From an uncultured Alphaproteobacteria bacterium (GTDB taxonomy: Bacteria > Pseudomonadota > Alphaproteobacteria > Methylaequorales > Methylaequoraceae): 45,449 bases of DNA. Made by a program: the position numbers and the translations under genes. Each line of letters opens with the position of its first letter. Positions within the stretch are counted from its first letter, which is position 1. Positions 8,798 to 26,777 of this stretch are shown here, in pieces. A model generated the notes under the pieces. The model made no database searches. It was given only the letters and a program-made list of their open reading frames with translations, and was not told where the DNA came from. The stretch is from positions 1-45,449 of the forward strand of contig CACACI010000009.1 of assembly GCA_902530985.1 (NCBI GenBank). Reading direction: 5' to 3'.

Positions 8798-10219
8798 TTA
8801 TTCATTCAGTACCCAAGTATCTTTAACTCCACCTCCCTGAGATGAGTTAACTATCAATGAACCTTCTTTTAGTGCCACTCTTGTTAATCCGCCATTAACT
8901 AACTTTGTTTTATTAGCCCCAACCAAGCAAAATGGTCTTAGGTCAACATGTCTGGGTGATAATCTATTTTTATCAAAGATCGGAACCGATGATAATTCAA
9001 GAATAGGTTGTGCAATATAGTTTTCAGGATTTAATAGAATTTTTTTTCTAAAGTTTTCAATTTGTTTTTTTGACGATTTGCTACCAATCATTAAACCATA
9101 GCCACCTGAGCCGTGTACTTCTTTTACAACTAATTTGTTCAGATTGTTTAGAACATATTTCCTTTCATCATCTTTATAACATCTCCAAGTTTTTACGTTT
9201 TCTAATATGGGTTCTTCGCCTAAGTAGAATTTTATTATTTCAGGTAAATAAGAATAAATTGCTTTGTCATCAGCAATACCTGATCCAGGTGCAGAGCAAA
9301 TATTCACATTATCAGATTTGTAGGAATCAAATAGACCAGGGATTCCAATAAGTGAAGAGCTGTCAAAAGATATTGGGTCAATAAATCTGTCGTCAATTCT
9401 TCTATAGATAATATCTACTTTTTCTGGACCTCTAGTTGTTTTCATATATGTTATTGATTCATCAACAAAAAGATCAGTTCCTTGAACTAGTTCAACTCCC
9501 ATAAGGTCTGCAAGAAAACTATGTTCATAGTATGCACTATTTAATGAGCCAGGAGTAAGAATCACAACTTTTGGTTCTTTATTACACTTTTTTGGAGCTA
9601 AACTTTTTAAGACATCTAATAAGTAATGAGGATAGTTTTCTACTGTTTCAATTTTTAATTTTTCAAATAACTCTGGAAACATTCTCATCATTATTTCTCT
9701 ATTTTCAATCATATATGAAACGCCTGAAGGTGTTCGGCAATTATCTTCAAGAACTTTAAATATTTTTTCATCAACCCTTATAATATCTGACCCAATTATT
9801 GGACTATAAATCCTCTTTGGAACTTTAAATCCAACCATTTTGATCTCATATGCTGGATTTTTATAGATTAAGTTTTCAGGTATTATTTTTGCTTTTACAA
9901 TTTCACCAGAATTATAAATGTCATTTAAAAAGGCGTTAATAGCTAAAGCTCTTTGAACCACTCCATTTTTAATTTTTTTCCACTCAGTTCCAGAAATTAT
10001 TCTAGGAAACATGTCAAAAGGAATTAATCTTTCAGTTGAATCAAAATTATTATATACAGAAAATGTGATGCCAATCTTTTTAAAAAGATTTTCAGCTTCA
10101 TTTTTTTTTTTAACAATTATATTTTCTGGTAAAGATTTTGCCCAATCATATATTTTGTCATAAAATTTTCTAACTTTTAAGTTTTTATATACTTCATTAT
10201 ACATTTTCTTTTTACTCAT
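8798..10219 (-). CDS. Circularly permuted ATP-grasp protein
   Basis: A 473-residue member of the circularly permuted ATP-grasp type 2 family (former DUF404/DUF407). Visible signatures are IPFDMFPRIISGTEWKKIK near residue 67, a central VEDNCRTPSGVSYMIENR-like segment (VLEDNCRTPSGV), LTPGSLNSAYYEHSFLA, the ATP-binding loop VKEVHGSGGYGLMIG, and the C-terminal block RHVDLRPF with GGLTRVAL and NSSQGGGVKDTWVL. Members are predicted to ligate amino acids or peptides using ATP. It is the first gene of a four-gene minus-strand operon. The ATG at 10219 has no ribosome binding site; a stem-loop ends three bases before it. Confidence 0.9.
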   Translation of the reverse strand: MSKKKMYNEVYKNLKVRKFYDKIYDWAKSLPENIIVKKKNEAENLFKKIGITFSVYNNFDSTERLIPFDMFPRIISGTEWKKIKNGVVQRALAINAFLNDIYNSGEIVKAKIIPENLIYKNPAYEIKMVGFKVPKRIYSPIIGSDIIRVDEKIFKVLEDNCRTPSGVSYMIENREIMMRMFPELFEKLKIETVENYPHYLLDVLKSLAPKKCNKEPKVVILTPGSLNSAYYEHSFLADLMGVELVQGTDLFVDESITYMKTTRGPEKVDIIYRRIDDRFIDPISFDSSSLIGIPGLFDSYKSDNVNICSAPGSGIADDKAIYSYLPEIIKFYLGEEPILENVKTWRCYKDDERKYVLNNLNKLVVKEVHGSGGYGLMIGSKSSKKQIENFRKKILLNPENYIAQPILELSSVPIFDKNRLSPRHVDLRPFCLVGANKTKLVNGGLTRVALKEGSLIVNSSQGGGVKDTWVLNE

Positions 10220-10221
10220 TA

Positions 10222-10274
10222 TCGGAGTAGAAAGACAGCTGAATGCGTTCCTTCGGTGTCAAACCTACTTCCGA
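10222..10274 (-). promoter_or_regulatory. Structured leader hairpin before the ATP-grasp operon
   Basis: Read on the minus strand, TCGGAAGTAG (10274-10265) pairs with CTACTCCGA (10230-10222): nine pairs and one bulged A. The loop of about 34 bases has an inner GACA/TGTC stem. The 3' arm ends two bases before the start codon, so folding would hide it from the ribosome. Read on the plus strand the same DNA resembles an acceptor stem ending in CCA (to 10277). No known riboswitch class fits. Confidence 0.4.
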
Positions 10275-10431
10275 CCATAAAGGTTGAACGTTTAAATAGG
10301 TTATAACTTATATTTTTATAAATCAAGATGTTTATTTGCTTTGTGCGACTATATGTTTAAAATTTAAACTAGGCCCCCTTATATTTTCTCATTGATTGAT
10401 TTTTTCTCATAAAATATATTTATATATAAAA

Positions 10432-11256
10432 ATGAAATTTTTAATTTTTTCAGATCTCGATGGTACTTTTTTAAATAATGATACTTATTCTTTTGGTACA
10501 TTAAAAAATTATATAAATGAATTAGATCTTCAATTTGAAATCATATTTGTTTCAAGTAAAACATATGAGGAAATCGTTAAGGTTAAAAATAAAATAAATT
10601 TAAATTATCCATTTATAGTTGAGAATGGAGCATGTATTTTTTTTCCATTGAATTATTTTAAAGACAAATTAATAAATAAAAAATTTATTAAATATAAAAA
10701 ACATTTTGGTTTTAAATTATCGAAACTTGATCCTAAACTGTTAGTAAAATCACTAGACCATTTAAAAGAAAAATATAATTTTAGGTTTTATAATGATTTA
10801 TCAGAAAAAAAAATCAAAGAAATTACAAATTTAACAATTAATGATGTAAAGCTGAGTAAACTTAGAAAATTTACAAACCCAATTTATTGGGAAGATTCAT
10901 TAAAAAAAAAAAAGGATTTTAAGAATGAGATAAACTTGATTAATTCAAATTTTTCAGTTTTAGAAGGTGGAAGGTTTTTTCATGTTTCAGATAATTATGA
11001 TAAGGGATTGGCATTAAAAAAATTCTTAGAAATTAGAAATTCTTTAGAATCTTCATTTACAACAATTTCAATGGGAGATAGCGAAAATGATATACCAATG
11101 CTTGAACTAACAGATTTCGGCTGTATCATTAAATCAAAAACAAATATGAAATTTGTTTTAAAAAATAAAAAAATTTTTAAAAGCAAAATGATTGCTCCAG
11201 AAGGTTGGAAGGAATCATTAGAATATATTTTTAATAAGGAGATGAAAAATTTCTGA
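10432..11256 (+). CDS. Glucosyl/mannosyl-3-phosphoglycerate phosphatase
   Basis: A HAD-superfamily phosphatase of the mannosyl-3-phosphoglycerate phosphatase group, 274 residues. Motif I is FSDLDGTFL with nucleophile Asp8 and Asp10, and motif IV is MGDSENDIPML near residue 220; VSSKTYEEI is motif II-like. With the synthase next door the expected substrate is glucosyl-3-phosphoglycerate, giving glucosylglycerate. An upstream in-frame TTG at 10396 exists, but the family begins at MKFLIFSDLDG, so I place the start at 10432. That ATG has no ribosome binding site and sits in A/T-rich, -10-like sequence. The stop codon overlaps the start of the synthase. Confidence 0.85.
   Translation: MKFLIFSDLDGTFLNNDTYSFGTLKNYINELDLQFEIIFVSSKTYEEIVKVKNKINLNYPFIVENGACIFFPLNYFKDKLINKKFIKYKKHFGFKLSKLDPKLLVKSLDHLKEKYNFRFYNDLSEKKIKEITNLTINDVKLSKLRKFTNPIYWEDSLKKKKDFKNEINLINSNFSVLEGGRFFHVSDNYDKGLALKKFLEIRNSLESSFTTISMGDSENDIPMLELTDFGCIIKSKTNMKFVLKNKKIFKSKMIAPEGWKESLEYIFNKEMKNF
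11236..11241 (+). promoter_or_regulatory. Ribosome binding site that fixes an ATT start
   Basis: AAGGAG lies seven bases upstream of the ATT codon at 11249 and within the end of the phosphatase gene. The nearby ATG at 11242 belongs to the phosphatase frame and reaches its stop four codons later, and the ATG at 11268 is out of frame with the synthase. The site therefore supports initiation at ATT. Confidence 0.6.
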
Positions 11257-26305: not shown

Positions 26306-26408
26306 ATTAATTAATACATAATATTAATAAGAGATGAATATTTCAATCAGTATAAATTAAGTAACTATATAGTATTCATATTATTTAACATATAAAAAGG
26401 ATTAGAAC

Positions 26409-26486
26409 ATGGCATGGTCAAAACCAATTATTTCTGAAATTTCAGTAGGTTTAGAAATTAATTCATACGCTTGCGCTGAGAAGTAG
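26409..26486 (+). CDS. pqqA: PqqA-like precursor peptide, 25 aa
   Basis: A 25-codon gene: MAWSKPIISEISVG, then LEINSY, then ACAEK. It matches the PqqA pattern, a WxKP start, I(S/A)EI in the middle and the G-x-E-x3-Y core in which the Glu (16) and Tyr (20) are cross-linked to become the PQQ backbone. Length is typical (22-30). A ribosome binding site AAAGGA lies about seven bases before the ATG. No pqqB, C, D or E is in the window. A 79-residue secreted protein starts 51 bases later. It would supply the substrate for PQQ made by genes elsewhere, or for another radical-SAM modified product. Confidence 0.75.
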   Translation: MAWSKPIISEISVGLEINSYACAEK

Positions 26487-26537: not shown

Positions 26538-26777
26538 ATGAAAATATTAAGCACTATTTTGATTTCAATGAGTCTGATATCTTTCCAGGCTTTATCTTGT
26601 CCATATCAATCAATGGCAGAAATAGATAAAAAGTTATATTCTATCAAGCCTGATATGAATAGCGAGAGTTATGAGAAAGTCATAAGCTTACGAAAATTGG
26701 GCGAGGAAGCTCTTAATGCAGGCAATATTGATGAATCTGAAAAAATATTAAACAAAGCTTTAGCACTGATAAAATAA
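26538..26777 (+). CDS. Small secreted helical protein next to pqqA
   Basis: This 79-residue protein has a signal peptide (LSTILISMSLISFQALS) and a mature part of about 58 residues starting CPYQSMAEIDKKLY, then two helices with KLGEEALNAGNIDESEKILN, which reads like half a TPR pair. The Cys right after the signal peptide could be lipidated, though the preceding residues are ALS, so the lipobox is imperfect. It probably resides in the periplasm and may serve as a small partner or adaptor, perhaps of a PQQ enzyme given its neighbour; that link is inference from position only. Confidence 0.6.
   Translation: MKILSTILISMSLISFQALSCPYQSMAEIDKKLYSIKPDMNSESYEKVISLRKLGEEALNAGNIDESEKILNKALALIK

Follow-up and report, generated by a model that had tools for sequence, protein, structure and literature searches.

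PqqA is the substrate, and not an enzyme, of PQQ synthesis, and one peptide is consumed per PQQ molecule: PqqE, acting with PqqD, cross-links Glu16 to Tyr20, and excision and finishing are carried out by PqqB and PqqC. In several methylotrophs, extra pqqA genes lie away from a single pqqBCDE set. Such orphan copies number 3–12 per genome in Methylophilaceae (PMC4109929), five pqqA copies are present in Methylovorus (Ge 2015, as cited in PMC9851590 and PMC11317620), M. extorquens carries the orphans pqqA2 and pqqA3 (PMC11317620), and Beijerinckiaceae RH AL1 has three pqqA genes (PMC10848612). For phages, PqqA has been reported from the Lake Baikal population VP_266, whose predicted host belongs to the Methylophilaceae, and was proposed there as an auxiliary metabolic gene (PMC7678222); viral pqqA, pqqD and pqqE have also been listed from reservoir sediment (PMC13188868).

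Here we analyzed an orphan pqqA on a 45,449-nt stretch of DNA (the window) from an uncultured alphaproteobacterium. As in the methylotrophs above, extra pqqA copies are found away from one pqqBCDE set; unlike in those organisms, they occur in a streamlined uncultured marine family and come with a pqqA-only dyad element, autonomous terminators and close phage counterparts. The host family (f1) matches the order TMED127/'Methylaequorales', uncultured ocean methylotrophs, the genome itself being placed by family and genus kinship. Among the public records with an identical peptide core are AG-892-F10, MED657 and MED715, all three placed in TMED127, the proposed Methylaequorales, by PMC12542740. 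In its passages on this clade, that paper describes genomes of ∼1.5 Mb, apparently of obligate methylotrophs, with the most highly transcribed xoxF5 of oligotrophic surface seawater. The methylotrophy island reported there, with the main pqq operon and xoxF, corresponds to 41–60 kb of contig C1 in our genome, and the passages on the island make no mention of orphan or phage pqqA copies. In the open-access literature we found no prior report of orphan pqqA genes in TMED127, of the element before them or of pqqA in this set of marine phages. Orphan pqqA genes of methylotrophs are already known; the novelty lies chiefly on the phage side.

The window gene and its surroundings

The following features were recorded around the gene.

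26324–26360, no strand assigned: 37-bp pqqA element TTAATAAGAGATGAATATTTCAATCAGTATAAATTAA with four half-sites, dyad symmetric as TTAA-N7-TGA-N9-TCA-N7-TTAA (pattern search and alignment)
26368–26373, plus strand: weak candidate for a −10 box, TATAGT, proposed from where it lies relative to the 37-bp element
26397–26401, plus strand: Shine–Dalgarno sequence AAGGA, 7 nt 5′ of the ATG (by reading of the sequence)
26409–26486, plus strand: orphan pqqA for a 25-aa PqqA precursor peptide with Glu16-x3-Tyr20 (TIGR02107, PF08042 and near-identical family copies)
26538–26777, plus strand: predicted secreted protein of 79 aa with a CPYQ motif, starting 51 nt past the pqqA stop codon

The open reading frame (25 codons plus stop) encodes MAWSKPIISEISVGLEINSYACAEK and is a genuine PqqA, far beyond chance. 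Profile searches scored it at 37.5 bits against TIGR02107 (cut-off 20) and, genome-wide, at 29.3 bits against PF08042 (cut-off 21.1), for which PqqA scores of 29.3–31.2 bits were recorded. The earlier note on this DNA had the coordinates and the Glu16-x3-Tyr20 core right, and the good ribosome binding site that it described is the AAGGA sequence. In its neighbourhood, pqqA has DnaJ-like, TerB-like, weakly RRF-like and photolyase-like genes; the contig yielded no radical-SAM gene resembling PqqE. Because no terminator follows the window pqqA, the 79-aa reading frame, which has no Pfam match, is possibly co-transcribed with it. Homologues of the 79-aa protein lie 0.2–3.5 kb from orphan pqqA genes in about a dozen relatives. 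Elsewhere in the window, a glutamine riboswitch (RF01739, 56.1 bits; 10242–10292, minus strand) is located upstream of the reading frame at 8798–10219.

Operon and orphan copies in the genome and the family

The genome to which the window belongs (G000; 1.12 Mb, 78% complete; the window is contig C9) contains three pqqA copies by PF08042, namely an operon copy at C1:50686 and two orphans, at C11:24668 and C9:26412 (the window gene). The C1 copy heads a complete pqqABCDE operon, in which pqqB (383 bits), pqqC (346), pqqD (83) and pqqE (572) all exceed the NCBIfam cut-offs. Nearby are genes for a XoxF-type PQQ alcohol dehydrogenase (TIGR03075, 662 bits), a MoxJ/XoxJ-like protein above cut-off (TIGR03871), a cytochrome c that matches the methanol-metabolism cytochrome family below threshold, ABC transporter components and a PQQ-associated beta-propeller protein. 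The earlier statement that PqqB–E are absent therefore holds for the window but fails for the genome, where the search it proposed for pqqBCDE and PQQ-dependent dehydrogenases returns pqqBCDE, xoxF and xoxGJ-like genes. At the C11 orphan (L008, 8650–10918), a tRNA 3′-end-like fragment and a tyrosine-integrase-like reading frame adjoin pqqA, with an intact tRNA-Thr at 10843–10918; this arrangement suggests an integration site next to that copy.

A search of relatives for the same short frame, also proposed earlier, found pqqA in 31 of 32 family genomes (79 copies in total; 2–5 copies in 25 of the 32), the sole genome lacking it being 54% complete. Outside the family, PqqA was present in 10 of 64 genomes of the class. 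Across an alignment of 73 copies (22 operon, 51 orphan), residues 10–25 read EISVGLEINSYACAEK in nearly all cases while the codons vary, and Glu16 and Tyr20 are present in every aligned family copy. Comparison of these sequences shows purifying selection on the PqqA core. Neither a lack of pqqE and pqqD nor a lack of Glu16 and Tyr20 conservation, which the earlier note had set against its own reading, was encountered. The genes flanking orphan copies vary from genus to genus. At one contig end (L097, G031:C19, 306–530), a pair of pqqA copies in inverted orientation is probably an assembly artefact.

It is improbable that the window copy is a non-functional duplicate in decay. Of the PqqA peptides encoded in this genome, its own departs furthest from the operon peptide, and its −10 box is weak and its terminator missing; against decay, the 16 core codons (10–25) differ from those of the operon copy by five synonymous and no non-synonymous changes, the upstream element is intact, a Shine–Dalgarno sequence is present, and orphan copies persist throughout the family. 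With high confidence, the window gene is an orphan pqqA that looks functional.

Two uses had been offered for it: a stand-alone copy raising PQQ output in a methylotroph-like organism, or a peptide for a different modifying enzyme. The first is well supported as regards the copy and its setting, because the genome has pqqBCDE, xoxF and xoxGJ-like genes and because Glu16 and Tyr20 are conserved family-wide; raised PQQ output is putative. The second gained no support, and we regard it as extremely unlikely that another radical-SAM or other modifying enzyme turns the peptide into another product. The window pqqA does stand alone, far from pqqE and by DnaJ-like and TerB-like genes, and the genome has two further radical-SAM genes weakly similar to PqqE. 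However, the window and operon peptides agree at all 16 core residues, the upstream element is common to both copies, and neither radical-SAM gene is on this contig; both adjoin unrelated genes, one a methyltransferase-like and a glycan-type gene, the other ispH. The radical-SAM protein beside ispH is presumably HpnH.

An element common to operon and orphan copies

The 37-bp element is found upstream of all but about three of the 73 aligned pqqA copies, starting ∼83–117 nt 5′ of the ATG, and that of the window copy is intact (0 mismatches). Across copies it reads TTAA(C/T)-N6-TGAA(T/C)-N6-(A)TCAG-N6-TTAA; the operon form starts TGAAT, and the elements of orphan copies are dyads of the spacing listed above. 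With at most one mismatch, almost all matches of the pattern in family genomes were at pqqA, compared with one match for a reversed-pattern control. In the window's own genome, the element was found solely before the three pqqA genes with at most two mismatches, and at three mismatches extra matches were no commoner than in the control. It is absent from xoxF in this genome, and any link to methanol oxidation would therefore run via demand and not via a shared operator. A reading of the element as 11-bp direct repeats of the OmpR/PhoB type was dropped; the element is equally a dyad, so we claim no regulator class. The genome encodes four OmpR-type regulators.

A TATA box often lies 3′ of the element, most commonly 15 nt after the start of the last TTAA, a spacing that the window copy fits less well. 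Terminator-like hairpins within 110 nt downstream accompany 48 of 50 orphan versus 7 of 22 operon copies, the window copy being one of the two orphan exceptions. A pqqA-only element common to operon and orphan copies appears to be new.

Why orphan copies are kept

Our best explanation, which we hold to be highly probable, is that the orphan pqqA is a second-site PQQ-precursor gene in a streamlined marine methylotroph and provides an extra, co-regulated precursor supply for XoxF. Orphan copies would act as short transcription units with the operon's upstream element and usually a terminator of their own, and would raise precursor supply together with the operon. The peptide would be made and then processed by the operon's enzymes, dosage being the benefit, and the extra PQQ would charge the very abundant XoxF methanol dehydrogenase. 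Demand for PQQ should be high, because 16–57% of transcripts mapping to AG-892-F10, a TMED127 genome, come from xoxF5, according to the passages of PMC12542740 on this clade. Work on Methylovorus with its five copies, as cited in PMC11317620, found PqqA supply to be rate-determining. On the contrary side, the same paper cites Toyama and Lidstrom 1998 for pqqA being dispensable for PQQ in M. extorquens, although orphans were not considered there. The weaker −10 box of the window copy and its missing terminator also count against this explanation. With moderate confidence, dosage of a consumed precursor best accounts for why the window gene is kept.

PqqA has also been proposed as a possible part of lanthanide uptake, and pqqA2 and pqqA3 are differentially expressed in M. 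extorquens (PMC11317620). A role of the peptide, or of PQQ derived from it, in binding or taking up lanthanides instead of supplying cofactor is nevertheless very improbable here: PQQ synthesis agrees directly with both the conserved Glu16 and Tyr20 and the pairing with the operon.

Phage copies of pqqA

Searches of IMG/VR with a peptide-core pattern (scan 1) and a looser pattern (scan 2) each returned at least 120 contigs, together at least 183 distinct viral contigs (L212–L331, L333–L395), nearly all with a PqqA reading frame of 24–27 aa. The scan 1 pattern fixed core residues, which makes conservation among its viral copies circular; scan 2 fixed fewer. These contigs span several phage lineages, T4-like and podovirus-like groups included. 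They encode, for example, a terminase, portal and major head protein (L250), another terminase (L352), a baseplate wedge (L367), an internal virion protein (L375), DNA polymerase, primase-helicase and ribonucleotide reductase (L229, L230), T4-type ssDNA-binding protein, exonuclease and PhoH (L226, L275, L297), or a helicase loader, endolysin and NifU-like protein (L213). Homologues of representative proteins were found on 146 of the 183 contigs, a generous count, as PhoH and ribonucleotide reductase also occur outside viruses. In the L213 group, a solo pqqA lies just 5′ of the NifU/IscU-like gene.

Many of the viral peptides match the TMED127 host signature. The host-type element was not recognisable on the scan 1 phage copies, whose scores (9–15 of 20) were in the range seen for random stretches of host sequence, and tblastn of PqqA against named phage genomes gave no credible match. 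No relatives of the host PqqB were found in the IMG/VR collection by a search that reaches close relatives only. Whereas Baikal phages carry methanol dehydrogenase, a search of the same reach found a single XoxF relative among all the viral contigs of the collection; encoded on the 78.7-kb contig L332, it shares 58% identity with the host protein. A second viral PqqA type (L333–L394; ..GLEINCYACAEI, ending EINCYACAEI) occurred in one of 240 alphaproteobacterial genomes (G220, L426), as a solo gene beside LysR-like and MFS-like genes; its sequence points to another marine host group. One contig, L392 (55% GC, 266 kb), is probably bacterial or prophage sequence. The contigs L130 and L151, labelled Maricaulis and Flavobacteriaceae in public MAGs, have a pqqA of the phage type and appear to be phage sequence that was mis-binned.

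The coding sequence of the window pqqA resembles T4-like phage copies more than it does the operon copy of the same genome, which suggests phage–host exchange. Over the exact reading frame it is 91–93% identical to T4-like phage copies such as L227, L242, L257 and L261; identity to host paralogues is ∼75–86%, in matches that take in the promoter as well. Ala2 (GCA) and Ser4 (TCA) are found in phage copies and in no other host copy. Over codons 3–25, the nearest phage copies show four differences and the nearest host copies six, and in a maximum-likelihood tree the nearest tips are phage copies, with 69 nt giving no usable clade support. The signal is, however, carried by 69–83 nt only; over the last 17 codons two host copies (two differences) are as close as the phage copies (three to four), the promoter element of the window copy is host-type, and no phage genes were recognised beside it, whereas the phage copies do lie on contigs with viral genes. 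Exchange with phages, in either direction, is a possible origin of the window coding sequence that we propose tentatively. It concerns where the gene came from and is compatible with extra precursor supply as the reason for keeping it.

Implications for ocean methylotrophy

A broader form of this idea, which we put forward with some doubt, is that PqqA is traded between dominant ocean methylotrophs and their phages: several phage lineages may each carry the precursor only and none of the enzymes, keeping XoxF charged during infection, and host orphans like that of the window may have exchanged coding sequence with them. The 25-codon pqqA genes are too short for most gene finders, and they are also phage-borne. 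If the cofactor supply of this clade's XoxF5 were shown to draw on several dispersed genes of this kind, the PQQ supply of ocean methylotrophy would become directly testable, and what phages bring to their hosts would extend from enzymes to a peptide that is consumed as a substrate.
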